DNA of 64,000 nt from Leifsonia sp. 1010. Lineage in GTDB: Bacteria; Actinomycetota; Actinomycetes; Actinomycetales; Microbacteriaceae. This document shows positions 9,537 to 47,305 of this stretch, piece by piece. The stretch spans positions 62,001 to 126,000 of the forward strand of contig NZ_JAVDSL010000002.1 in NCBI RefSeq assembly GCF_031455295.1, read 5' to 3'. A program made the position numbers and the translations under genes. The notes beneath the pieces are model-generated. The model was not told where the DNA came from. It did no database searches and saw nothing but the letters and a program-made list of their open reading frames with translations. Positions within the stretch are counted from its first letter, which is position 1. Each line of letters starts with the position of its first letter.

Positions 9537-9541
9537 ATCGG

Positions 9542-9615
9542 TTGCGGGGGCAGGATTTGAACCTACGACCTCTGGGTTATGAGCCCAGCGAGCTACCGAG
9601 CTGCTCCACCCCGCG
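9542..9615 (-). tRNA. Initiator tRNA-fMet (CAT)
   Basis: The minus-strand sequence folds as a cloverleaf with anticodon CAT in the loop CTCATAA. Two initiator hallmarks are visible: a C1-A72 mismatch at the end of the acceptor stem (CGCGGGG against CCCCGCA) and three consecutive G:C pairs at the bottom of the anticodon stem (GGG/CCC). The 3' CCA is not encoded: after discriminator A the genome reads CCG, so it must be added after transcription. Confidence 0.95.
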
Positions 9616-9734
9616 GCACAAGAAGAAACTCTAGCACGGGATCCGAGGGGCGTGAAATCGCGAACACCCGCCCGGGCGCGTCCGCTCGTGTGAACCGGTC
9701 GTCCTACTAGAGTCGTTCCCAGATAGGGGATGCG

Positions 9735-10817
9735 ATGACGAGTGTCGTGACGAAGTACCGGGTGGTCGTGGTCGAGGATGACCCGGATGTCGCCTTCTTC
9801 ATGAAGACCGTGCTCGAGAAGCGCGCGGACGCCGTTGCCATCGCGGTGACCGATCCGTCCATCGCCCTCGCCACGATCGCCGAGTTCGAGCCGGACCTCG
9901 TCATCACCGACATCGAGATGCCCGGCATCACCGGTCTCGACCTGCTCAAGGAGCTGCGCGCGCAGTATCCCGGGATGCCGGTCGTCGTCATGACCGCGCA
10001 CGTCTCGGTCGACTACGCCGTCTCCGCTCTCCGGGCGCAGGCGGACGAGTTCCTGAGCAAGCCGGTCGCCTCGGCGGAGCTCGTCGCGATCGTGAACCGC
10101 CTTGCCGCCGAGGGCCGCATCAAGCGGGCCGCCGCCCGTCGCCAGGTCGTCCTCGCGATCGGTGCGCACCCCGACGATGTCGAGATCGGCGTGGGCGGCA
10201 TCCTCGCCGCGCACCGCGAAGCGGGCAACGACGTCGTCATCCTCACCCTCTCGCGCGGCGCTCGCGGCGGGGACGCCGACGACCGCCAGCACGAGTCCCT
10301 CGCGTCGGCGGAACTCCTCGGCGCCCGGCTGTTCCTCGAAGACCTCGAGGACACCCACATCTCCGCGGCGGACCCGACGGTCGGCATCATCGAGCGCGTC
10401 GTCGCCGAGGTCCAGCCGGACATCGTCTACACGCACTCATCGCACGACCGTCACCAGGACCACCGGGCGGTCCACGCGGCGACGAACGTCGCCACCCGGT
10501 CCGTGCGCACGGTCTGCTGCTACCAGAGCCCGTCCGCCACCATCGACTTCCGGCCCACCCGCTTCGTACCCATCGACGGATTCACCGAGACCAAGCTGCA
10601 GCTGATCGACTGCTTCCGCTCGCAGACCGAACTGCGCGGGTACCTCGAGCCCGACTTCGTGCTCGCGACCGCCCGCTACTGGTCGCGCTTCGGCGGCGGC
10701 AAGAACTGCGAGCCGCTGGAGGTCATGCGCGACACCGCCGACATCTCGGTGCCCGCCTCCGCCATCCACAACGACGCCCGCGTCGCGGGAAACCGACTGA
10801 ACAGGACCGCTGAATGA
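9735..10817 (+). CDS. Response-regulator receiver domain fused to an LmbE/PIG-L family deacetylase
   Basis: A 360-residue two-domain protein. Residues 8-125 are a CheY-like receiver with the acidic pair EDD (14-16), phosphoacceptor Asp59 (ITDIEMPG), Thr87 and Lys109 (SKP). After a short Arg/Ala linker, residues 138-330 are an LmbE/PIG-L de-N-acetylase with zinc motif AHPDDVE (144-150) and the distal HDRHQDH (237-243). Family members remove acetyl groups from GlcNAc-linked small molecules, as in MshB and Bca enzymes. The fusion suggests that hydrolase output is switched by phosphorylation, which is an inference. The start is ATG at 9735 with GGGG upstream; a TAGAGT at 9718-9723 is a possible -10. 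It is the first gene of a coupled operon and overlaps the ATP-grasp gene by ATGA. The substrate is unknown. Confidence 0.9.
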   Translation: MTSVVTKYRVVVVEDDPDVAFFMKTVLEKRADAVAIAVTDPSIALATIAEFEPDLVITDIEMPGITGLDLLKELRAQYPGMPVVVMTAHVSVDYAVSALRAQADEFLSKPVASAELVAIVNRLAAEGRIKRAAARRQVVLAIGAHPDDVEIGVGGILAAHREAGNDVVILTLSRGARGGDADDRQHESLASAELLGARLFLEDLEDTHISAADPTVGIIERVVAEVQPDIVYTHSSHDRHQDHRAVHAATNVATRSVRTVCCYQSPSATIDFRPTRFVPIDGFTETKLQLIDCFRSQTELRGYLEPDFVLATARYWSRFGGGKNCEPLEVMRDTADISVPASAIHNDARVAGNRLNRTAE

Positions 10818-11827
10818 CCGACTCCACCCGTACCCGCGTCCTGGTGACGGGCGCCGGCGGCCCCGCGGGCGTCGCGGTGATCCGCTCGCTGCTGGCCCGG
10901 GACGATGTCGAGGTGTACGCCGCCGACATGGACGGGTGGGCCAGCGGCCTCTACCTCGTGGGGGAGGGCTGCAGGCGGATCGTGCCGCCCGGACGGTCGG
11001 ACGGCTTCGTCGATGCGCTCATCGCCATGAGCCGGGAGGACGGGATCGACGTCCTGTTCTCGACGGTCGACGTCGAGCTGCCGGGTCTCGCCGCGCGCCG
11101 CGACGAGCTCGAAGCGGTCGGAACGAAGCTGGCGGCCCCCTCGCGCGACACCCTGGTCACCTGCCTCGACAAGTTCGCCCTCATCCAGCGCGTCGGCGAC
11201 CAGGCGCGCGTGCCCGTCACGCGGCTGCTGAACCCGCAGGGCGTCGGTGCTGATTGGACGTTCCCGGTCATCATCAAGCCGCGCAGCGGCGCCGGATCGC
11301 GCGGCGTCCGCCTCATCACGGATCGCGGCACCCTGGAGGCGCTCGGCACCGACGAGAGCATCATCATCCAGGAGAACCTGCCCGGCGAGGAGTTCTCGGT
11401 CGACGTCCTCGCGGGGCTCGACGGCAACGTCATCGCGGCCGTCCCGCGCTCCAGGGAGCGCGTCGACTCGGGCGTCTCGATCGCCGGCCGGACGGTGCGG
11501 CGGGCGGAGCTCTCCGACACCGCCGCGGCGGTGGCCCGCGCGATCGGCCTCACCGGCGTCGCGAACGTGCAGCTGCGGTACAGCACCGACGGCACGCCGG
11601 CACTGCTCGAGGTGAACCCGCGCTTCCCCGGCGCCATGCCGTTGACCATCGCGGCCGGCGTCGACATGCCGTCCCTCCTGCTCGACCTGGTCCTCGGCCG
11701 GCCGGTTCCGTCGGCCGTCGACTTCGAGGAGCTCGCCAACGTCCGGTTCCTGGAGGACGTCTTCCTGTCACCCGCCGACGTGCTCGTCTCCGAGAACGCG
11801 GCGCACGCGGAGGGTCCGGAGGAGTGA
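10814..11827 (+). CDS. ATP-grasp domain ligase, carbamoyl-phosphate-synthase-like
   Basis: A 337-residue ATP-grasp protein. The N-terminus has a Rossmann-like start (VLVTGAGGPAGVAVIRSLL). The ATP-grasp core follows with FPVIIKPRSGAGSRGV (about residues 150-166), the hinge glutamate in IIIQENLPGEEFSVD, and the metal-binding end LLEVNPRFPGAMP (about 262-274). These proteins join a carboxylate to an amine or other nucleophile through an acyl-phosphate. It overlaps the receiver-deacetylase gene by four bases and the PHP gene by GTGA, so it is part of one translationally coupled unit. In this context it could ligate an amino or carboxylic group to the amine exposed by the deacetylase; that pathway is an inference. 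Confidence 0.88.
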   Translation: MTDSTRTRVLVTGAGGPAGVAVIRSLLARDDVEVYAADMDGWASGLYLVGEGCRRIVPPGRSDGFVDALIAMSREDGIDVLFSTVDVELPGLAARRDELEAVGTKLAAPSRDTLVTCLDKFALIQRVGDQARVPVTRLLNPQGVGADWTFPVIIKPRSGAGSRGVRLITDRGTLEALGTDESIIIQENLPGEEFSVDVLAGLDGNVIAAVPRSRERVDSGVSIAGRTVRRAELSDTAAAVARAIGLTGVANVQLRYSTDGTPALLEVNPRFPGAMPLTIAAGVDMPSLLLDLVLGRPVPSAVDFEELANVRFLEDVFLSPADVLVSENAAHAEGPEE

Positions 11828-12627
11828 GCGGGACGGAGGCCGGCCGGCTGCCCGCGCTGCTGCACGGCGACTTCCACGTCCACTCGACGTTCTCCGACGA
11901 CGCACGGAGCACTCTGGCGGAGAACATCGCGGCGGCGTCCGCGGTCGGCCTCCGGACGATCCGCCTCACCGATCACGTGCGCGCGTCGACCACCTGGGTC
12001 CCCGAGTTCCTCACCGCCGTCGCGGCGGAGCGCGTACCCGACGGACTGACCGTGCTCACCGGTGTGGAGGCGAAGCTGCTGGATGCGTCAGGCGCCGTCG
12101 ACACACCGCCCGGCCTGGTCGTCGGTCCCGGTGGGGTGGATGCCGTCGTCATCGGCGATCACCAGTTCCCCGGAACGGACGGGCCGTGGTCGCCCACGGC
12201 CACGCGCGAACGGCTCGACGCCGGCCTGTCGGTCGACGACGCGCTCGACCTGTTCGTCGAGGGCAGCATCCGGGCGATGGAGCGCACGCCGCACGCGCAG
12301 CTGGCGCACTGGTTCTCCATCCTGCCGAAGGTCGGGCTCGACGAGACCCAGCTCGGCGCGGAGCGGCTCGCCGCCTGGGCGCAGGCCGCCGCGGCGACCG
12401 GGACCATCGTCGAGGTCAACGAGAAGTGGAACTGCCCCGGCCCGGACGCCATCGCGGCGCTGCTCGATGCCGGGGCGCGTATCGTCGCCTCGACAGACAG
12501 CCACGTCGCCGCCGACGTCGGGCGCTACGACCGCGTCCGGCAGCTGCTGGACGCGGCCGCCTCCCGGGTCGCGGGAGAAAGGGTGACCGTGGGAACCGAG
12601 ACAGGGGAGAGGGAGGACGCACGGTGA
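11824..12627 (+). CDS. PHP domain phosphoesterase-like protein
   Basis: A 267-residue protein with PHP-domain motifs. The first is HGDFHVHSTFSDDA, with metal ligands His18 and His20, followed by RLTDHVR, then the late TDSHVAADVG containing Asp and His. PHP enzymes use two or three metals to hydrolyse phosphate esters, for example histidinol phosphate. The GTG start at 11824 overlaps the preceding stop (GTGA); a much longer in-frame extension upstream is antisense to coding logic of the ATP-grasp gene and has no support. It also overlaps the next small gene by GTGA. Its presence beside a deacetylase and a ligase suggests a biosynthetic or degradative role for a phosphorylated metabolite, which is inferred. 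Confidence 0.87.
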   Translation: MSGTEAGRLPALLHGDFHVHSTFSDDARSTLAENIAAASAVGLRTIRLTDHVRASTTWVPEFLTAVAAERVPDGLTVLTGVEAKLLDASGAVDTPPGLVVGPGGVDAVVIGDHQFPGTDGPWSPTATRERLDAGLSVDDALDLFVEGSIRAMERTPHAQLAHWFSILPKVGLDETQLGAERLAAWAQAAAATGTIVEVNEKWNCPGPDAIAALLDAGARIVASTDSHVAADVGRYDRVRQLLDAAASRVAGERVTVGTETGEREDAR

Positions 12628-12818
12628 GCCCAGCCCGACACTCGTCCGGAGAGCCGGCAGCGAACCCGGCCGAACCCTCCGCCGAGCTCCGCGAGCGCAT
12701 CCAGAACGAGCTGGACCGCGACCGCCGCTGGGAGTTCCGGCTCCCGCTGTACGCCGGCGTCGCGCTGCTGATCTGCGCCGCGATCGTCGTCGTCCGGACG
12801 GTGTTCCTCCATGTCTGA
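12624..12818 (+). CDS. Single-pass membrane microprotein of the signalling operon
   Basis: A 64-residue protein starting at GTG 12624 (GTGA overlap with the PHP gene) and ending eight bases inside the next receiver gene. Residues 1-40 are polar and helical (SAELRERIQNELDRDRRWEF), followed by one transmembrane helix (LPLYAGVALLICAAIVVVRTVF) split here as YAGVALLICAAIVVV and a very short tail. The overlaps at both ends and consistent codon use argue it is real. It could anchor or tether one of the soluble partners to the membrane near the histidine kinase; no family is recognised. Confidence 0.75.
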   Translation: MSPARHSSGEPAANPAEPSAELRERIQNELDRDRRWEFRLPLYAGVALLICAAIVVVRTVFLHV

Positions 12819-13200
12819 GCGCAAACGCGTCGTGATCGCCGACGACGATGACGACATCCGGGGCCTGATGACCATCGCCGCGAACCGCGCGGGCGTGGAC
12901 ATCGTCGCGGCCGTCGACAACGGCTCGGCGGCCCTCGCCGCCGTGCAGGCGGGCGGCATCGACCTCGCCGTCCTCGACATCTCGATGCCCGGACTGAACG
13001 GCGTGGAGGTGGCCGAGGCGATCCGGGCGGATGACCTCACGCGATCGACACTCATCCTGATGGTGTCGGCGTCGGTCCAGCTGCTCACCGACCACGGCGT
13101 CGTCGCCGACCGGTCGGACAGTTTCATCGTCAAGCCGTTCAGCCCGCGTGTGCTGTCGACCCGCATCCGCGAGATGCTCGAACTGGGGGAGCCCTCATGA
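12811..13200 (+). CDS. Receiver-only response regulator
   Basis: A 129-residue single-domain CheY-like protein. The acidic pocket DDDDD is at residues 11-15, phosphoacceptor Asp56 lies in LAVLDISMPG, serines at 85-87 (MVSAS) fill the Thr/Ser switch position, and Lys107 lies in IVKPF. No output domain follows. The ATG at 12811 lies inside the previous gene and the stop overlaps the kinase start (ATGA). Receiver-only proteins usually act as phosphate shuttles or bind partner proteins. Here it may link the adjacent kinase to the receiver-deacetylase in a phosphorelay, or compete with it for phosphate (inference). Confidence 0.92.
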   Translation: MSERKRVVIADDDDDIRGLMTIAANRAGVDIVAAVDNGSAALAAVQAGGIDLAVLDISMPGLNGVEVAEAIRADDLTRSTLILMVSASVQLLTDHGVVADRSDSFIVKPFSPRVLSTRIREMLELGEPS

Positions 13201-14975
13201 CCCTCGACCGCTGGCTCAGCCGCATCCCGCTGGACTCGCCCTCGGCGTTCATGAAGCAGGTGCCGACGATCGTCGGCTTCGCGATCGCCGCGTCGATCGC
13301 CGCGCTGCCGAACGGCGTGCCCATCACCAACGCGCCGCTGTTCCTGGCCGGCATCGCGCTGGTGGCCGTCGCGACCGTGTTCTCCCTCATCATCCCGTGG
13401 CGGCATCTGAATCCGGAGTGGGCGGTCGTCATCCCGGTGCTTTCGCTGCTCGCCGTCGGGCTGCTGCGGCTCGGGACGGGGTCCGCCGCCTCGCCGTTCG
13501 CGGTGCTCACCCTGCTGCCCTTCGTCTGGATCGCCTCCGAGGCCGGGCGCATCAACATCCTCATCGCGGCGCTCACCACCTTCGTCGTACTGCTCGCACC
13601 GCTCGTCGTCGACGGCGTCGGCCACACCGCAGGAGACATCGTCCGCGCCTTCTTCTCGCCGGTGATCTACCTCATCGTCGCGATCGTGATCAACGAGATC
13701 GCGCACAGGATGCGCGTGCAGCTCGCCGCGGCCCGTGCGGCGGGGGAGCAGCAGCAGCAGCTCCTGGCCCAGGCCGTGCAGGCGCAGGACGAGCTGGTGC
13801 TCAACGAGGCGCGGCTGAAGACCGCGAATCGTCTCATCCAGAGCATCTGGAACGCCGTCACCGAGCAGTCCGTCATCGGCACCGACCTCGACGGTCTCAT
13901 CGACGTCTGGAACCCCGGCGCCGAGAAGATGCTCGGCCTGACCGAGAAGCAGGTGCTCGACGGCAAGCACCACATCATCGACTTCCACCTCCAGTCGGAG
14001 CTCGCCGAGCGGCTTCAGGACATGGATGCGCGCTTCACCACCGTCGCCACCACCGACGAGTTCTCGGCGCTGGTGGACACCGTCCGCGCCGGGTCCGCCG
14101 ACGTGCGCGACTGGACGTACGTGCGGCCCGACGGCAAGCGCGTCGTCGTGCAGGTCGCGGCGACGCCGCGCATCGACGAGAACGGCCACCGGGTCGGCTT
14201 CATCTTCGTCGCGACCGACATGACCGAGGCCCGCGAGTTCGCCCGGCTCAAGGACGAGTTCGTCGGGCTCATCTCGCACGAGCTGCGGACGCCGCTCAGT
14301 TCGATCCTCGGCTACCTGGAGCTGCTCCGGGACGACGACGAGGATCCGCTGTCGGAGGAGCAGCTGCAGTACCTGGCGGTCGCTGAGCGCAACGCGCACC
14401 GCCTGCTCCGCCTGGTCGGCGACCTGCTGTTCACCGCGCAGGTGGAGTCGGGGCGCTTCCCCCTCGACATCAAGGACGTCGGGTTGAACACCGTCGTCGC
14501 GGCCTCCGTCGAGTCCGCCCGTCCCGTCGCCGCGAATGCGGGCGTGACGCTCGTCGCCGAGGTGCCGGACCACACGGTGGAGGTGCGCGGCGACACGCTC
14601 CGCCTGGGCCAGGCCGTCGACAACCTGGTGTCGAACGCGCTCAAGTTCACGCCGTCCGGCGGCACCGTCACGGTGGCGCTGCGCCAGGAGGCAGGCGAAG
14701 CGGTGATCGCCGTCAGGGACACCGGCATCGGCATCCCTGCCGTGGAGCTGAGCCAGCTGTCACAGCGCTTCTTCCGGGCGTCGACGGCGACCCGCAACGC
14801 GGTCCCGGGCGTCGGGCTGGGGCTCACCATCACCAAAGCGATCGTGACCGCCCACGGCGGCCGCCTCGACATCGCCAGCGAAGAGGGCGTCGGCACGTCG
14901 ATCAGCATCGTCCTGCCGGTGGAGACGCCCAGACCCGTGACCGAGGCCATCCCGCGCGTGGAGGTGGCGCCGTGA
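13197..14975 (+). CDS. Membrane PAS-domain sensor histidine kinase
   Basis: A 592-residue protein. The N-terminus has about six hydrophobic segments between residues 22 and 168. A coiled linker (GEQQQQLLAQAVQAQDELVL) spans about 183-210, and a PAS domain about 212-345 (IGTDLDGLIDVWNPGAEKMLG). The dimerisation box carries phospho-accepting His361 in ISHELRTPLSS. The ATPase domain shows the N box NLVSNALKFTPSGG, DTGIGIP and GVGLGLTI, so all catalytic boxes are intact. It overlaps the receiver gene upstream and the nitrilase gene downstream by four bases each. The kinase, the receiver-only protein and the receiver-deacetylase form a plausible phospho-signalling set. The membrane part resembles no extracellular ligand domain, so the stimulus is likely sensed in the membrane or by the PAS domain. 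Confidence 0.92.
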   Translation: MTLDRWLSRIPLDSPSAFMKQVPTIVGFAIAASIAALPNGVPITNAPLFLAGIALVAVATVFSLIIPWRHLNPEWAVVIPVLSLLAVGLLRLGTGSAASPFAVLTLLPFVWIASEAGRINILIAALTTFVVLLAPLVVDGVGHTAGDIVRAFFSPVIYLIVAIVINEIAHRMRVQLAAARAAGEQQQQLLAQAVQAQDELVLNEARLKTANRLIQSIWNAVTEQSVIGTDLDGLIDVWNPGAEKMLGLTEKQVLDGKHHIIDFHLQSELAERLQDMDARFTTVATTDEFSALVDTVRAGSADVRDWTYVRPDGKRVVVQVAATPRIDENGHRVGFIFVATDMTEAREFARLKDEFVGLISHELRTPLSSILGYLELLRDDDEDPLSEEQLQYLAVAERNAHRLLRLVGDLLFTAQVESGRFPLDIKDVGLNTVVAASVESARPVAANAGVTLVAEVPDHTVEVRGDTLRLGQAVDNLVSNALKFTPSGGTVTVALRQEAGEAVIAVRDTGIGIPAVELSQLSQRFFRASTATRNAVPGVGLGLTITKAIVTAHGGRLDIASEEGVGTSISIVLPVETPRPVTEAIPRVEVAP

Positions 14976-15808
14976 GCGACCGGCCGGCCGAGCTCACCAT
15001 CGACGACCGCACCGTCGCGGTCGCTGTCGCCCAGTTCGCGCCGGGCGACGACCGCGTGCACAACCGGGATGTGGTCGCCGGCCTGATCGCGGTCGCCGCC
15101 TCCCGCGGTGCCCGCCTCGTGATCCTGCCCGAGTACTCGTCGTACTTCACCGATCCCCTCGGGCCGTCGTTCGCCAGGAACGCCGAGCCGCTCGACGGCG
15201 ACTTCGTCGGAGCGCTCTCCGCCGCCGCCCGCGAGCACGGGCTGTTCGTGGTGGCCGGCCTCGTCGAGCGCACCGATCAGGCGCACAAGTTCTCGAACAC
15301 GCTCGTCGCGGTGGGGCCGGAGGGCGACGTGCTCGCGACCTACCGCAAGCAGCACCTCTACGACGCGTTCGGGGCGACGGAGTCGGAGTGGGTCGTCCCC
15401 GGCGACCTGGACGAACCGCAGACCTTCGAGGTGGACGGCGTGACCGTCGGCCTGCAGACCTGCTACGACCTGCGCTTCCCGGAAGTGACGCGCCGCCTCG
15501 CCGACGCGGGTGCGCTGCTGGTGGCGGTTCCCGCCGAGTGGGTGCGCGGACCGCTGAAGGAGTTCCACTGGTCGACGCTCCTCGCGGCCCGCGCCATCGA
15601 GAACACCGTCTACGTCGCCGCGGCCGACCATCCGCCGTCGATCGGGGTCGGCGCGAGCGCGATCCTCGATCCGATGGGGGTCACGTTGGCGGGGCTCGCC
15701 GACACGACCGGTGTCGCCGTCGCCGACGTGTCCACCGCTCGAGCGCGCGAGGTGCGGGAGCGCAATCCTGCTCTCGCCCTCCGGCGCTATCGGGTGAGTC
15801 CGCTCTGA
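14972..15808 (+). CDS. Carbon-nitrogen hydrolase (nitrilase superfamily amidase)
   Basis: A 278-residue nitrilase-superfamily protein with the Glu-Lys-Cys triad: Glu54 in LPEYSS, Lys126 in YRKQHLYD, and nucleophile Cys164 in QTCYDLRFPE. The YDLRFPE context is that of omega-amidase / deaminated glutathione amidase type branches (Nit2/YafV-like). Such enzymes hydrolyse small amides. The GTG start at 14972 overlaps the kinase stop (GTGA) and the stop overlaps the next ATG, so it belongs to the same transcript. Whether it acts in the deacetylase/ligase pathway or is simply co-transcribed cannot be told. Confidence 0.9.
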   Translation: MSDRPAELTIDDRTVAVAVAQFAPGDDRVHNRDVVAGLIAVAASRGARLVILPEYSSYFTDPLGPSFARNAEPLDGDFVGALSAAAREHGLFVVAGLVERTDQAHKFSNTLVAVGPEGDVLATYRKQHLYDAFGATESEWVVPGDLDEPQTFEVDGVTVGLQTCYDLRFPEVTRRLADAGALLVAVPAEWVRGPLKEFHWSTLLAARAIENTVYVAAADHPPSIGVGASAILDPMGVTLAGLADTTGVAVADVSTARAREVRERNPALALRRYRVSPL

Positions 15809-16210: not shown

Positions 16211-17407
16211 CTAACGCGGCAGCCCGGCCAGACGGCGTGCCGCCTCCTCGAGCACGTCGATGCGCTTGCAGAACGCGAACCGGACGAGGGATGCGGTGCG
16301 CGCCGCGTACTCGCCGCGGCTGAACGCGCCCAGCGGCACCGCGACGACTCCGGCCAGTTCCGGCAGCCGACGGCACAGCTCGACACCCTCCGGGAAGCCG
16401 AGCGGGGCGGCGTCCGCGACCACGAAGTAGGTCCCGTCCGAAGGGAAGACGCCGAAACCGGCGGCCGCAAGGCCGGCGGAGAGCACATCCCGCTTGTGGG
16501 CGAGAGCCTCGGCGATGCCGGTGAAGTAGGCGTCCGGGAGCCGAAGCCCCGTCGCGATCGCCGGCTGGAACGGCGCGCCGTTGACGTAGGTGAGGAACTG
16601 CTTCACGGCGAGCACCGCGGTGACGAGCTCCGGAGGGGCCGTCAGCCAGCCGACCTTCCATCCCGTCGTGTTGAAGGTCTTGCCGCCGGACGAGATCGCG
16701 ACCGTGCGCTCCCGGGCCCCCGGCAGCGTCTCGATCGGGATGTGCTCCGGCCCGAACGTCAGGTGCTCGTAGACGGAGTCGGTGATGATCACGGCGTCGT
16801 GGCGTTCCGCCAGTTCCACGATCGCCGTGAGCGTCTCACGATCGAGCACGCTGCCCGTGGGATTGTGCGGCGTGTTCACCAGGATGGCGCGCGTACGGTC
16901 GGTCACCGTGTCGCGCAGCCGGTCGAGGTCCGGGCGGAAGGTCGGCGGCTCCAGCGGCACGGTGCGGTGCACGCCGCCCGCCAGCGCGATCACGGCGCCG
17001 TACTCGTCGTAGTACGGCTCGAAGGTCACCACCTCGTCGCCGGGTTCGAGCAGCGCGAGCAGCGTCGCAGCGATCGCCTCGGTCGCGCCGGCGGTGATGA
17101 GAACCTCGCGGTCAGGGTCGAGCTCTATGCCGTAGAACCGCTTCTGGTGCTCGGCGACGGCCAGGCGCAGGTCGGGGATGCCCATCCCGGGCGGGTACTG
17201 GTTCTCGCCGTCGCGGATGGCCGCCACCGCCGCTTCGAGCACCGCGGCGGGTCCGTCCTCGTCCGGGAACCCCTGTCCGAGGTTGATCGCGCCCGTCCGC
17301 GACGCCAGCGCGCTCATCTCGGCGAAGATCGTCGGCCGCACGGAGCCGTCGGCTCCGAGCAGTCCTGCACCCGTGGCGGCGCGCCGCCACCCTCCCGTGA
17401 TCGTCAT
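16211..17407 (-). CDS. PLP-dependent class I aminotransferase, DapC-like
   Basis: A 398-residue fold-type I aminotransferase. Features include GAINLGQGFPDEDGP at about residues 39-53, the NxPHNPTG motif (178-185), TDSVYEHL with the cofactor Asp/Tyr, and the PLP-binding Lys243 in SSGGKTFNTTGW. These match the family containing actinobacterial N-succinyldiaminopimelate aminotransferase and kynurenine aminotransferases. A role in lysine/diaminopimelate synthesis is plausible but not certain. The ATG start at 17407 is preceded by TAGCGT six bases upstream and no ribosome site, which points to a leaderless transcript. It converges with the operon ending at 16188. Confidence 0.88.
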   Translation of the reverse strand: MTITGGWRRAATGAGLLGADGSVRPTIFAEMSALASRTGAINLGQGFPDEDGPAAVLEAAVAAIRDGENQYPPGMGIPDLRLAVAEHQKRFYGIELDPDREVLITAGATEAIAATLLALLEPGDEVVTFEPYYDEYGAVIALAGGVHRTVPLEPPTFRPDLDRLRDTVTDRTRAILVNTPHNPTGSVLDRETLTAIVELAERHDAVIITDSVYEHLTFGPEHIPIETLPGARERTVAISSGGKTFNTTGWKVGWLTAPPELVTAVLAVKQFLTYVNGAPFQPAIATGLRLPDAYFTGIAEALAHKRDVLSAGLAAAGFGVFPSDGTYFVVADAAPLGFPEGVELCRRLPELAGVVAVPLGAFSRGEYAARTASLVRFAFCKRIDVLEEAARRLAGLPR

Positions 17408-17413
17408 AGGACA

Positions 17414-17455
17414 ACGCTACGGCCTTACTCGCATCCAACCCATTGGGTACGTTGG
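17414..17455. promoter_or_regulatory. Divergent control region with leaderless promoter and palindrome
   Basis: On the minus strand TAGCGT (17419-17414) lies exactly six bases before the aminotransferase ATG, as expected for a -10 element of a leaderless mRNA. An 11-base palindrome ACCCATTGGGT (17438-17448) is framed by CCAAC (17435-17439) and GTTGG (17451-17455). It could be an operator for either divergent gene; this is unproven. Confidence 0.45.
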
Positions 17456-17552
17456 GGAGAGTCATCGATACGCAGAAGGTCGCCCACAGCAACGGCAAAT
17501 AGAACGCCCAGGTTCGCATCCCAAGCTGTCTGTGCTTGGAAGGAGCAACACC

Positions 17553-19310
17553 ATGACCGACACCCCGAACACCCCGGAGCCCGCGAAGCCCCAGCACGAC
17601 GCCGACACCGACGCGGTCGTGGATGCTGCCGGCACTGAGCGCACCCCCGCCGCCCCGGCGGAGCAGACCCTGGCGGAGCAGACTCCCGCAGACCAGACCC
17701 CCGCGGACCAGACTCCCGCAGCCCAGACCCCCGCAGCCGGCGCCGGATGGACCGCACCGGCCGCGCACAGCGGAGGCGACGCCGGAGCGCAGCCGACCGT
17801 CCCACAGCCGACCGCCGCGCAGCCGACCCAGCCGCAGCCCACCGCTGCGCAGCCGACGGTTCCGCAGCCCACCGGCGCGCCCTACCAGGCGCAGCAGCAC
17901 CAGCAGCAGACGTACGGCCAGCCCTACGGCCAGCAGCAGCAGCAGCAGCCCCAGCAGTCCCACTACGGCAACGGCGCCTTCGGCCAGCCCGCGGGATACG
18001 GCCAGCAGCCGCAGCAGCCCTACGCTCCGAACGCCCACCAGCAGGGCTACGCCGGCGCACCGGGCGCCGCGACCGCCACGGCTCCGGCGAAGCCCGCCAA
18101 GAACCGCAGCACCGGCCTCATCATCGCGACGCTCGCCATCGGCGCGCTCGTCGGCGGCATCGCCGGCGCCGGAGCGGGAGTCGGCATCTACGCCGCCACC
18201 GACGGCGGCAGCGCGACGATCAAGACCGTCTCCGGCCCCCAGAACATCACGGTGAACGACTCCAACGATGCGAGCACCATCACCGCGGTCGCCGCCAAGG
18301 CGTCCCCGAGCGTCGTCACCATCTCGGTGAGCGCGTCGAGCTCCGGCGGCACCGGCTCCGGCATCATTCTGACCTCCGACGGCTACGTGCTCACCAACAC
18401 GCACGTGGTGACGCTCGACGGTCAGGCCGCCAACGTCAACGTGACGGTCACCGACAACGACGGCAAGATCTACACCGCCAAGATCGTCGGAACCGACCCG
18501 ACCACCGACCTCGCCGTCATCAAGCTGGACAAGGCCTCCGGCCTCACCCCGATCAGCTGGGGCGACTCGAGCAAGCTCAACGTGGGCAACACCACGGTCG
18601 CCATCGGTGCGCCGCTCGGCCTCTCCGGCACCGTCACCGACGGCATCGTCAGCGCGCTCAACCGCAGCATCAGCATCGCCTCCTCGGCCGCTCCGAAGGA
18701 CGACTCGAACAGCGACGGTGGCAGCCAGAACCCGTTCAACTTCGACTTCCCCGACCAGGGCGGCCAGCAGCAGCAACAGCAGCAGAGCTCCGGAACGATC
18801 TCGCTCCCGGTCATCCAGACCGACGCGTCCATCAACCCCGGCAACTCCGGTGGTGCGCTGCTCAACAGCAAGGGTGAGCTGATCGGCGTCAACGTGGCCA
18901 TCGCCAGCGCGGGCGGCTCCAGCTCCGACGGCTCGCAGTCCGGCAGCATCGGCGTCGGCTTCGCCATCCCGTCGAACCTCGCGAAGCGCATCTCCGACGA
19001 GATCATCAAGAGCGGATCCGCCACGCACGGCCTGCTGGGCGCGTCGGTCGCCGACGCGAGCACCGACAGCAAGGCCACCACGGTCGGCGCGCTCATCAAG
19101 AGCGTCACCAGCGGCGGCGCCGCGGCCGGCGCGGGCCTCAAGGCCGGCGACATCGTGGTGAACCTCGACGACACCCCGATCACCGACGCCACCGATCTGA
19201 CCGCCCAGGTGCGCGCGCAGGCAGCCGGCTCGAAGGTCGACGTGACGTACATCCGCGACGGTCAGACCAAGACCGCGACCGTGACGCTGGGAACCCTCCC
19301 GGCGGAGTGA
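17553..19310 (+). CDS. HtrA/DegP-like membrane-anchored serine protease with PDZ domain
   Basis: A 585-residue protein. Residues 1-184 are a low-complexity cytoplasmic region rich in Pro, Gln and Thr with repeated PADQTP, PTxPQPT and YGQP motifs. One transmembrane helix is at about 187-215, a trypsin-like domain at about 240-470 and a PDZ domain at about 480-585. The triad is His284 (TNTHVV), Asp319 (TTDLAV) and Ser432 (NPGNSGGA). A Gln-rich insert (about 381-414) lies between Asp and Ser. The ATG at 17553 has AAGGAG upstream. The architecture is typical of actinobacterial HtrA proteins that act in envelope quality control. A hairpin terminator follows the stop. Confidence 0.93.
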   Translation: MTDTPNTPEPAKPQHDADTDAVVDAAGTERTPAAPAEQTLAEQTPADQTPADQTPAAQTPAAGAGWTAPAAHSGGDAGAQPTVPQPTAAQPTQPQPTAAQPTVPQPTGAPYQAQQHQQQTYGQPYGQQQQQQPQQSHYGNGAFGQPAGYGQQPQQPYAPNAHQQGYAGAPGAATATAPAKPAKNRSTGLIIATLAIGALVGGIAGAGAGVGIYAATDGGSATIKTVSGPQNITVNDSNDASTITAVAAKASPSVVTISVSASSSGGTGSGIILTSDGYVLTNTHVVTLDGQAANVNVTVTDNDGKIYTAKIVGTDPTTDLAVIKLDKASGLTPISWGDSSKLNVGNTTVAIGAPLGLSGTVTDGIVSALNRSISIASSAAPKDDSNSDGGSQNPFNFDFPDQGGQQQQQQQSSGTISLPVIQTDASINPGNSGGALLNSKGELIGVNVAIASAGGSSSDGSQSGSIGVGFAIPSNLAKRISDEIIKSGSATHGLLGASVADASTDSKATTVGALIKSVTSGGAAAGAGLKAGDIVVNLDDTPITDATDLTAQVRAQAAGSKVDVTYIRDGQTKTATVTLGTLPAE

Positions 19311-19332
19311 TCGCGCAGCTCGAGCACACCCA

Positions 19333-19366
19333 GAAGGGCCGTCCCGCAGGCGCGGGGCGGCCCTTC
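19333..19366 (+). terminator. Intrinsic terminator after the HtrA gene
   Basis: A hairpin with arms at 19333-19347 and 19352-19366 (GAAGGGCCGTCCCGC against GCGGGGCGGCCCTTC, one G-T pair) and loop AGGC lies 22 bases after the stop codon. Confidence 0.85.
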
Positions 19367-19434
19367 CCCGTTCCCGGCTGCGCCGCAGACCCGGCTGATA
19401 GGCTCGACGCCGACCCGCTACAGCGAAGGACCAG

Positions 19435-20478
19435 ATGCCGGACGACATCGTGAACACCCTCCCCGGTGTCTCGTACGTGATGCCCGTGCTCAACGAGGTG
19501 ACGCACGTGCGGGCCGCCGTCGACAGCCTTCTGGCGCAGGACTACGCCGGGCCGTTCGAGGTCACCATCGCCCTCGGCCCGAGCATGGACGGCACGACCC
19601 AGCTGGTCGAGGAGCTCGCCGCCGTCGACAGCCGCATCCGGGTCGTCGACAACGTGGTCGGCTCGACGCCCGCAGGGCTCAACCTCGCCATCCGCGAGTC
19701 GCAGTACCCGATCGTGATCCGGGTGGACGCGCACAGCGTCCTGCCGCCCGACTACGCGCGCGTCGCCGTGGAGACCATCCTGGAGACCGGCGCAGACAAC
19801 GTGGGTGGACTGATGGATGCGCAGGGCACCACCGACTTCGAGCGCGCCGTCGCGCGCGCGTACGGCAGCCGCGTAGGGCTGGGCGGCACGAAGCTGCACG
19901 TCGGCGGCGAGGCCGGTCCAGCCGAGACGGTCTACCTCGGCGTGTTCCGCCGCGATCGCCTGATCGAGGTCGGCCTCTTCGACGAGGAGATCAAGCGCGG
20001 CCAGGACTGGGAGCTCAACCGGCGCCTCCGCACCACCGGCGGCACGGTCTGGTTCACACCGCGGCTCAAGGTCACCTACCGCCCGCGCCCGAACCTGTAC
20101 CGGCTCGCCCGGCAGTTCTTCTCCACCGGAATCTGGCGCGGCGAGCTCGCACGGCGGTTCCCGGCCTCCAACGGCCTGCGCTACTTCGCGCCTCCGGTGA
20201 TGGTGCTGGGCGTCGCGGTGGGGACGCTGCTCGGCATCGTCGGCATCGTCCAGGCCCTCCTCGGCGCCGCGCCGTGGCTGCTCTGGGGCTTCGCCATCCC
20301 GGCGCTCTACATCGTCATCGTCGTGGTCTCCGCGCTGGTCTGGGGGCGGCGCGACGGTTTTCGCCCGTTCCTGTGGTTTCTCGTAGTCTTGCCGTGCATC
20401 CACTTCAGCTGGGGGATCGGCTTCGTCCTCGGATACCTGTCGCTCACCCGCAACATCACGGCCCACACGGGAAGGTAG
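19435..20478 (+). CDS. Glycosyltransferase family 2 with C-terminal membrane segments
   Basis: A 347-residue GT2 enzyme of the ExoA-like type. The nucleotide-sugar domain starts at VSYVMPVLNE, with VDAHS (Asp-Ala-His) as the metal/donor motif, and QDWELNRRL as the late acceptor-side motif. Three or four hydrophobic segments follow from about residue 255 to 340. The ATG at 19435 is used; a TAGGCT box near 19398 may be its -10. It is followed two bases after its stop by a CDP-alcohol phosphotransferase and another GT2, forming an envelope-polymer operon. The sugar and acceptor are not predictable. Confidence 0.9.
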   Translation: MPDDIVNTLPGVSYVMPVLNEVTHVRAAVDSLLAQDYAGPFEVTIALGPSMDGTTQLVEELAAVDSRIRVVDNVVGSTPAGLNLAIRESQYPIVIRVDAHSVLPPDYARVAVETILETGADNVGGLMDAQGTTDFERAVARAYGSRVGLGGTKLHVGGEAGPAETVYLGVFRRDRLIEVGLFDEEIKRGQDWELNRRLRTTGGTVWFTPRLKVTYRPRPNLYRLARQFFSTGIWRGELARRFPASNGLRYFAPPVMVLGVAVGTLLGIVGIVQALLGAAPWLLWGFAIPALYIVIVVVSALVWGRRDGFRPFLWFLVVLPCIHFSWGIGFVLGYLSLTRNITAHTGR

Positions 20479-20480
20479 GC

Positions 20481-21299
20481 ATGACCGCACCCGGACCTGC
20501 GGCGCACGGCGCCCGTCCGTCCTCGATCGCCGAGCTGAAGGCCGTCGCGCAGCCCCCCGAGGTGCGCGGACGCCGCAACGCGGAGCACTGGACGGCCTCG
20601 CTGTACCTCCGCAACCTGTCGCCGTATCTGACGTGGGTGCTGCTCAAGACCTCGATCTCGGCGAACGGTGTGACCGGCCTGATGATCCTGACGGGATGGG
20701 CGACGGCCGCGGCCCTGCTCATCCCGGGTATCGCCGGCGCGGCTGTCGCGCTGGTGCTCGGCCAGCTGCAGATGCTGGTCGACTGCTGCGACGGCGAGGT
20801 GGCGCGCTGGCGCCGGACGTCGTCGCCCGCGGGCATCTTCCTCGACAACGTCGGCCACTACTCGACCGAGACGCTGATCGCGATCGTCCTCGGCATCCGT
20901 GCCGCCGGCTATCCGCTGGAGACGCCGGAGGACTTGCTCTGGACGAACCTCGGCACCCTGCTCGCCCTGGTGATCGTGCTGAACAAGGCGCTCAACGACA
21001 TGGTGCGGGTGGCGCGCGCCAACGCGGGACTGCCGAAGCTCGCCGACACGCAGTCGGAGTACGCGCCGACCCACGGGCTCATCGCGACGCTGCGGCGCGC
21101 GGCGAAGTTCCTGCCGTTCCACCGGCTGTACCACTCGGTGGAGCTCACCATCCTGATCTTCGTGTTCTCGATCGTCGGCCTGTTCATCGGCGCGACGCTC
21201 GCCGACCGCATCCTGCTCTGCGCGCTCGTCCCGTTGTCGATCCTGGCGCTGATCGGGCACTTCGTGACCATCATGGCGTCTCGGCGGGTCCGTGGCTGA
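20481..21299 (+). CDS. CDP-alcohol phosphotransferase with an altered last catalytic residue
   Basis: A 272-residue integral membrane protein. The CDP-alcohol phosphatidyltransferase signature runs from residue 101: Asp101, Asp104-Gly105, Ala108-Arg109, Gly118 and Asp122, but the final Asp of the D-x3-D pair is His126 (LDNVGHYSTE). About five to six hydrophobic segments are visible. The family transfers a phospho-alcohol from a CDP donor. The start is ATG 20481, and it overlaps the next GT2 gene by eight bases. Placed between two glycosyltransferases, it probably makes a phosphodiester linkage in a glycopolymer or glycolipid. The CDP donor could come from the nucleotidyltransferase at 25.8-26.5 kb; both points are inferences. 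Confidence 0.85.
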   Translation: MTAPGPAAHGARPSSIAELKAVAQPPEVRGRRNAEHWTASLYLRNLSPYLTWVLLKTSISANGVTGLMILTGWATAAALLIPGIAGAAVALVLGQLQMLVDCCDGEVARWRRTSSPAGIFLDNVGHYSTETLIAIVLGIRAAGYPLETPEDLLWTNLGTLLALVIVLNKALNDMVRVARANAGLPKLADTQSEYAPTHGLIATLRRAAKFLPFHRLYHSVELTILIFVFSIVGLFIGATLADRILLCALVPLSILALIGHFVTIMASRRVRG

Positions 21300-22176
21300 G
21301 CTGCCCGCGATCGCGGTCGTGGTGCTCACGCAGGGCTCCCGGCCGGTCGAGCTGCGCCGCGGCGTGGAGTCGGTGCTCGCCCAGGAGGGCGTGACCACCG
21401 ACATCGTCGTGGTCGGCAATGGATGGGATCCGGCCACCGCAGACCCGGCGCTTCCCGCCGGCGTGCACGTGCTCGCCCTGCCCGAGAACGTGGGCATCCC
21501 CGCCGGACGCAATGCCGGGGTGCCGCTGGTGCGCGGCGAGTGGCTGTTCTTCCTCGACGACGACGCGGACATCCCCTCGCGCACGTTCCTGGCGGACGCC
21601 GTGGCCAAGCTCCGTGACGACCCCGGCATCGGGATGCTGCAGCCCCGGCTTCGCGTGCCCGACGGCACCCCGGCGCCCCGGCGCTGGATCCCGCGCATCC
21701 GCAAGGGCGACCCGGAACGCTCCAGCAACGTGTTCGCCGTGCTCGAGGCCGCCGTGGTCCTCCCGCGTGCCGTCTTCGAGCGGGCCGGCGGCTGGGCCGA
21801 TCCCTTCTTCTACGCGCACGAGGGCATCGACCTCGCCTGGAAGGTCTGGGACCAGGGAAGGCGCGTCTGGTACGCGGGCGACCTCGTGGCGGAGCATCCG
21901 TCCGTGTCGCCGACCCGGCACTCCTACTACTACCGGCTCAACGCGCGGAACCGCGTCTGGCTGGCCCGCCGCAACCTGCCGGCCGTGCTCATCCCGCTCT
22001 ACGTCGGATCGTGGACGGGCATTCAGCTGCTGCGCTGGTTCCGCAAGCCCGCTGTCTTACGCGCGTGGTTCGGCGGTTGGGCCGAGGGCTGGCGCACCGA
22101 TCCGGGCGAGCGACGCCCGCTGCGGTGGAGGACCGTGGCGCGGATGACGGCCGCAGGACGGCCACCGATCGTCTGA
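21292..22176 (+). CDS. Glycosyltransferase family 2
   Basis: A 294-residue GT2 protein. It opens AIAVVVLTQGSRPVELRR and has the donor motif WLFFLDDDADIP (DDD at about residues 98-100) with NVGIPAGRNAG before it. A late region with EGIDLAWKVWDQG matches the acceptor/catalytic block of rhamnosyl- and galactofuranosyl-type GT2 enzymes. There is no clear transmembrane helix apart from a short hydrophobic stretch near AVLIPLYVGSW. The GTG at 21292 overlaps the preceding gene, implying coupling. It is the last gene of the GT2 / CDP-alcohol transferase / GT2 operon. Confidence 0.88.
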   Translation: MAELPAIAVVVLTQGSRPVELRRGVESVLAQEGVTTDIVVVGNGWDPATADPALPAGVHVLALPENVGIPAGRNAGVPLVRGEWLFFLDDDADIPSRTFLADAVAKLRDDPGIGMLQPRLRVPDGTPAPRRWIPRIRKGDPERSSNVFAVLEAAVVLPRAVFERAGGWADPFFYAHEGIDLAWKVWDQGRRVWYAGDLVAEHPSVSPTRHSYYYRLNARNRVWLARRNLPAVLIPLYVGSWTGIQLLRWFRKPAVLRAWFGGWAEGWRTDPGERRPLRWRTVARMTAAGRPPIV

Positions 22177-46910: not shown

Positions 46911-47305
46911 GGGGATGATCGGTTTCGACATTGTCTGCGTGACTGTGAGAAGCGGGTCGAGGATGCATGGTTATCTCGTTAACGATCCATGCGAAAAAAT
47001 AAGTGCCAATAACAAGAGCACTGTCTCGGCCAAGGCCGACTTCGCCCTCGCGGCGTAAGTTCACCTCCGCCATTTGAGAGACCGTCAGACCGGGAATCGT
47101 CCTCTACCCGGATCCTGGCGTCAGCTAGAGGACTTGCTTCTGCATTGAGCATCAGGGTGCAGAGGGACTTCCACTGATACTGGGCCCGTCGGAGCAGGTG
47201 CCAGCGACAAGCTCCGGGGCCGAGAAAGCGATTTCACTGGCTACGCCCGTAGAAGGCACATGACCACAGCAGTGGACGGGGGTTCGATTCCCCCCATCTC
47301 CACCA
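46911..47305 (+). ncRNA. ssrA: Transfer-messenger RNA (tmRNA)
   Basis: A 395-base RNA. The 5' end GGGGATGATCGGTTTCGACA and 3' end GGTTCGATTCCCCCCATCTCCACCA form the tRNA-like domain with encoded CCA. The tag open frame is 47005-47058, resume codon GCC, encoding ANNKSTVSAKADFALAA. The terminal ALAA directs ClpXP-type degradation. TACTAT at 46821-46826 is a possible -10, with the 5' leader removed by RNase P. A terminator follows. smpB lies 2.4 kb upstream. Confidence 0.97.

Follow-up and report, generated by a model that had tools for sequence, protein, structure and literature searches.

Bacterial two-component systems act mostly via transcription. In response regulators with enzymatic output, such as CheB, the receiver is covalently joined to an enzyme, which makes direct control by a kinase possible. 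Fusions of receivers to metabolic enzymes have been described, one example being an archaeal receiver domain (REC) fused to a BcsA-like family 2 glycosyltransferase (GT2) of PF13641 (PMC5847659). Here we describe an operon in a 64-kb stretch of contig NZ_JAVDSL010000002.1 of Leifsonia sp. 1010 (the window), in which the output domain is instead a PIG-L/LmbE deacetylase, encoded together with a ligase, a phosphoesterase and a kinase. The system shares PF13641 with the archaeal fusion, since the GT2 partner discussed below belongs to it. PIG-L and LmbE go unmentioned in the text of the archaeal survey (PMC5847659), and no description of a receiver-LmbE fusion, or of the whole gene set, was found in the open-access literature. 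We propose, with a probability of roughly 0.62, that an N-deacetylase of an envelope amino-sugar pathway is controlled by a histidine kinase via the receiver fused to it, and that the genes make up a module for biosynthesis (or remodelling) that is conserved and gated by a two-component system. The system occurs in many actinobacteria from the environment, named strains of Leifsonia and Microbacterium among them, and its kinase apparently targets a sugar-modifying enzyme directly, one that belongs to a conserved pathway.

The operon and the gene upstream of it are laid out as follows, with positions counted along the window:

9540-9615, minus strand: tRNA-Met, upstream of the operon
9735-10817, plus strand: receiver-LmbE (PIG-L) fusion, 360 amino acids; receiver at residues 10-120, deacetylase from about residue 136
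10814-11827, plus strand: ATP-grasp ligase (ATPgrasp_Ter / PRK12767-like), 337 amino acids
11824-12627, plus strand: PHP-family metallo-phosphoesterase, 267 amino acids
12624-12818, plus strand: one-helix microprotein, 64 amino acids; transmembrane segment at about 37-64
12811-13200, plus strand: stand-alone receiver, 129 amino acids, with Asp56 and Lys108
13197-14975, plus strand: membrane PAS histidine kinase, 592 amino acids; five hydrophobic segments at 25-170, PAS domain at 225-345, His361
14972-15808, plus strand: nitrilase-family (carbon-nitrogen hydrolase) protein, 278 amino acids

The sequence-only reading of this DNA had described six genes that overlap end to end, from the fusion to the kinase. 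This is borne out by the recomputed overlaps (ATGA, GTGA, GTGA, 8 bases and ATGA) and by the Pfam matches, which are Response_reg plus PIG-L in one open reading frame (ORF), ATP-grasp, PHP, Response_reg, and PAS plus HisKA plus HATPase_c. Its placement of the phosphoacceptor Asp59 and the zinc motif in one polypeptide, and of His361 in the kinase, was likewise verified, with HPDDVE starting at His145. Beyond these six, the operon has a seventh gene that had not been noted, the nitrilase-family gene, which begins in a GTGA overlap with the kinase gene.

Both halves of the fusion protein have the residues expected of working domains. The receiver carries the acidic pair Asp15/Asp16, the phosphoacceptor Asp59, Thr87 and Lys109, while the LmbE domain, which matches PF02585 at 82.5 bits (cut-off 28.2), carries the HPDD and HxDH motifs with His145, Asp147, Asp148, His240 and His243, whose roles are those assigned in the PIG-L family. 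In the AlphaFold model the chain is continuous (mean predicted local distance difference test score (pLDDT) 92.3, predicted template modelling score 0.82), and helix 113-134, the last of the receiver, is predicted to extend as a linker into the LmbE domain. The receiver part matches solved receivers at Z 21. The LmbE part aligns over about 200 residues with BshB (6ull and 2ixd; Z 27, 2.3-2.6 Å) and matches diacetylchitobiose deacetylases at Z 25, so that the fold is nearest to N-acetylglucosamine-malate and diacetylchitobiose deacetylases; MshB is a lower-ranked match only, and solved members as a whole range from Z 22 to 27. With BshB, MshB and diacetylchitobiose deacetylase the protein has the fold and both motifs in common, but it differs from them by its fused receiver, by an identity of only ~22-28% in structural alignments, and by missing the BshB1 cut-off. 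A frame error that separates receiver and deacetylase, which had been named as a possible objection, is ruled out by the continuous model and by orthologues that encode both domains in a single frame, genus-wide and in other families; among the same-genus orthologues, the L033 copy is an exception in having an in-frame stop.

Gene order, co-occurrence, intact motifs, and separate ties to the pathway genes and to the kinase are what we observe across genomes. Neighbourhood profiles were built from the operon genes, with the GT2 taken from locus L144, and run on six-frame ORFs around 141 non-duplicate loci with an LmbE match, a sample chosen by homology whose fractions are not natural rates. Linked partners were an ATP-grasp gene at 111 of these loci, a PHP gene at 87 and a kinase gene at 121. 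Conserved co-occurrence, the test that the sequence-only reading had set for itself, thus holds well beyond the genus, and in most relatives the fusion does not stand alone. The genes most often follow the order receiver-LmbE, ATP-grasp, PHP, GT2, microprotein, receiver(s) and kinase, and the succession of fusion, ATP-grasp, PHP and GT2 is repeated across families, deep into the phylum. The microprotein family occurs in 45 of the 87 PHP-bearing loci and in none of the 54 PHP-less ones. At L218-L220 and L188, where no linked kinase is present, ATP-grasp, PHP and GT2 accompany an LmbE whose receiver is degenerate or absent; the enzymes are therefore a unit of their own. A receiver-less LmbE also occurs in an ATP-grasp and GT2 cluster, again with no linked kinase, at L222, L223 and L328, and this arrangement may represent an earlier version of the pathway; the LmbE proteins of L222 and L223 have hydrophobic segments at their N-terminus. 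At 23 loci, one of them on the edge of a contig, receiver-LmbE and kinase are found alone.

The same ties hold at the level of whole genomes. Of 300 genomes of the same family, 31 have the PHP gene and 50 the fusion, with no PHP genome lacking the fusion (31/31; hypergeometric 2e-29, with no phylogenetic correction). Nineteen genomes that carry the fusion and no intact linked pathway were searched whole, at thresholds of E 1e-30 for ATP-grasp and E 1e-60 for GT2. No GT2 was found in any of them (0/19), nor any ATP-grasp (0/19), the latter search being one without a positive-control genome, whose query does find homologues of 27-96% identity elsewhere. Of these genomes, 17 belong to the 300 drawn from the family and lack PHP too, while the other two are from a second family of the same order.

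We then consider whether the catalytic and phosphoacceptor residues follow the partner genes. We scored the five LmbE residues named above and, in the receiver, Asp15 (or Glu), Asp59 and Lys109; five loci were left out because their genes are truncated or cut by an edge. All five LmbE residues are intact in 108/108 loci with a linked ATP-grasp, compared to 16 intact and 12 damaged among the 28 loci without it. Where a kinase is linked, the receiver keeps its residues at every locus (118/118); of the 18 loci without one, 6 keep them and 12 have lost them. Fisher tests give 6e-10 for LmbE with ATP-grasp and 4e-13 for receiver with kinase, uncorrected for kinship. Within the own family, mean identity is 74.7% for LmbE versus 62.2% for the receiver where the pathway is present, and 58.2% versus 68.0% where it is gone. 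This inversion is limited to the own family, as in the second family both domains are about equally conserved in either state. Decayed LmbE sites in part of the family read AHPND, AHPSD, ARPDE and others, with the receiver intact and the kinase kept. Genus g59 holds both states: two pathway genomes keep HPDD/HQDH, and two pathway-less ones have DADH or YPDD/DPVH. From these sequences, some lineages appear to have lost the chemistry and kept the switch, that is, a receiver-LmbE with a decaying active site and its kinase. That pathway loss always destroys the LmbE site is ruled out by the 16 loci that keep all five residues without a linked ATP-grasp.

The ATP-grasp protein scores 111.5 bits against ATPgrasp_Ter (PF15632; cut-off 29.1) and falls under the NCBIfam cut-offs; its conserved residues are Lys120, Lys155, Glu193, Glu266, Asn268 and Arg270. 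Its model (pLDDT 92.3) has 2pn1 as the closest solved fold and also matches biotin carboxylases and amino acid ligases. While it is thus like PRK12767 / ATPgrasp_Ter (2pn1) in sequence and fold, here it sits with LmbE, PHP and GT2. The PHP protein matches PF02811, and His18, His20, Asp25, His51, Glu82, His113, His162, Asp225 and His227 are each at least 97% conserved in 93 sequences. The GT2 partner (PF13641, as seen in L144) has conserved DxD, ED and QxxRW motifs and transmembrane segments at both ends, and in these features, as in the sequence of its GT2 domain, is like cellulose synthase and PDB 6yv7, which we take to be a crenarchaeal membrane mannosyltransferase; it differs in being unlinked to the operon in this genus. 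Its absence from the operon is explained by a full-length homologue of 63% identity elsewhere in the Leifsonia sp. 1010 genome (G000:C1:416228-417682). Such a homologue is present in 14/14 same-genus genomes searched, and loss of GT2 in this genus is thereby ruled out. PMC8993221 cites a membrane mannosyltransferase of crenarchaeal origin whose fold is minimal and cellulose-synthase-like.

In the scheme that we infer, as to substrate, product, order of steps, phosphotransfer and sign of control alike, the membrane PAS kinase would phosphorylate Asp59 in the deacetylase's own receiver, with Asp56 of the stand-alone receiver as a possible further target, so that the enzyme would be switched directly by phosphorylation and not through DNA binding. 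The CesA-like membrane GT2 would place an amino sugar on an acceptor, the deacetylase would take off an N-acyl group, most likely the N-acetyl of that sugar, and the ATP-grasp enzyme may then couple the freed amine to a carboxylate, which could be that of an amino acid. The PHP enzyme would strip phosphate from an intermediate, and the pathway would probably yield a cell-envelope glycoconjugate that contains an amino sugar. We favour a kinase-controlled N-deacetylase in a membrane-associated amino-sugar pathway because it explains the linkage, the joint absence of the enzymes and the two separate residue patterns. The phosphorelay acting on a deacetylation-ligation pathway, as put forward from sequence alone, is supported by these residue patterns, although that proposal lacked the GT2, the nitrilase and the reduced lineages with receiver-LmbE and kinase. 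To a fuller account we would give somewhat less than even odds: that the envelope amino-sugar pathway has a post-translational phosphorelay on its own deacetylase, and that its enzymes were stripped in several lineages, where receiver-LmbE survives with the kinase as a phospho-regulated pseudoenzyme. Natural controls are at hand in relatives that have the enzymes but lack a working receiver, and in others that have receiver and kinase but a decaying enzyme; comparing close relatives, as within g59, allows tests both of the chemistry and of how a pseudoenzyme regulator arose.

Several observations do weigh against our proposal. The fold search indicates no substrate for the ATP-grasp enzyme, and the title of 2pn1 assigns none. 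The GT2 is unlinked in this genus and present in G006, a genome without the fusion, so that its membership here is by homology only. The PHP gene is not universal, as shown by a variant of 19 loci, nearly all from the second family, in which receiver-LmbE and kinase are accompanied by GT2 and ATP-grasp on the opposite strand and PHP is absent. In a tree built without the motif columns, two to three of four independent supported pairs agree with the residue association and none oppose it; as such, the tree-based association rests on few independent changes and is not significant alone. Finally, six second-family loci without a linked pathway (L209, L212, L276 and L278-L280) keep an intact LmbE site, which means that decay is not automatic.

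Could the module instead make a soluble small molecule, by a logic like that of mycothiol or bacillithiol? Synthesis of these thiol cofactors proceeds through glycosyl transfer, dephosphorylation, de-N-acetylation and ligation, to which the four enzyme types found here correspond, and the fold closest to the LmbE part is BshB, with the BshB1 model TIGR04001 matching at E 1.9e-22. That match, however, reaches 80.1 of the 182.5 bits of the cut-off, and the GT2 is a CesA-like membrane protein with QxxRW, unlike MshA and BshA, which are soluble and of GT4 type. Moreover, the N-terminal hydrophobic segments of the outgroup LmbE at L222, beside ATP-grasp and GT2, suggest a membrane-bound substrate, and the module is patchy within genera, unlike a core thiol. 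We therefore consider a soluble product unlikely, and an envelope conjugate the better reading.

Less probable still is that the LmbE part serves mainly as a non-catalytic output of the response regulator, binding a ligand or protein, with the neighbouring enzymes not being its pathway. The persistence of kinase and fusion in that part of the family where the LmbE site decays and the receiver stays intact would fit such a role, but the catalytic set is invariant in all scorable ATP-grasp-linked loci, where LmbE is also the better conserved domain in the own family; a non-catalytic role could therefore apply to the reduced lineages only. As for ordinary crowding of a two-component system and functionally unrelated metabolic genes, gene starts often overlap in compact genomes of high GC content, and the nitrilase varies in presence and position. 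Yet the complete co-occurrence of PHP with the fusion in the 300 genomes, the same order in several families, the joint genome-wide absence of three enzymes, and a motif decay that follows partner loss already disfavour this explanation, which we regard as very improbable.

The fusion occurs in 27/28 same-genus genomes (Leifsonia sp. 1010 counted), in 23/85 genera of the own family, in 74/222 genomes of the second family and, at a looser cut, in 21/297 genomes of the order, a few of which match the LmbE part alone. Named carriers include Leifsonia, Diaminobutyricibacter, Salinibacterium, Microbacterium and Leucobacter, besides metagenome bins of Frigoribacterium and Glaciihabitans. Further out, PHP of the operon type is rare, with 8/395 genomes of the class and 2/346 of the phylum, the own genome counted in each. 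Plasmid records, searched as a test of plasmid-borne spread, gave no match, and PADLOC anti-phage models gave weak matches to receiver and kinase domains only.

Some individual loci depart from these arrangements. At L194 (G072:C159) and L049, a row of receivers and four same-type histidine kinases in tandem come after receiver-LmbE. The operon is interrupted in two same-genus genomes of 2.6-2.7 Mb, in receiver-LmbE, ATP-grasp and kinase at L143 (G022), and in ATP-grasp and kinase at L142 (G017). At L193 (G210:C13), the reading frame of receiver-LmbE continues into what remains of an ATP-grasp gene, beside a kinase fragment, with PHP and GT2 gone; this has the look of a scar left by a deletion in the module. 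The single-contig genome G005:C1 has receiver-LmbE both at 423-1497, in pieces, and at 3590370-3591446, probably reflecting unclosed contig ends.

Around the operon itself, the tRNA-Met gene and a terminator-like hairpin upstream both lie on the minus strand, and the operon therefore most likely starts within the gap 9616-9735. No sigma-70-like site was found upstream, a result that carries little weight at this GC content. In the same family, the nitrilase-family gene often adjoins receiver-LmbE, upstream or downstream, with or without pathway genes; here, the next gene identified downstream of it is an aminotransferase on the opposite strand. Further downstream, at 17178-22176 on the plus strand, lie a trypsin/PDZ protease and two GT2 glycosyltransferases. 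The window also contains a tmRNA gene at 46911-47305, with the tag ANNKSTVSAKADFALAA.

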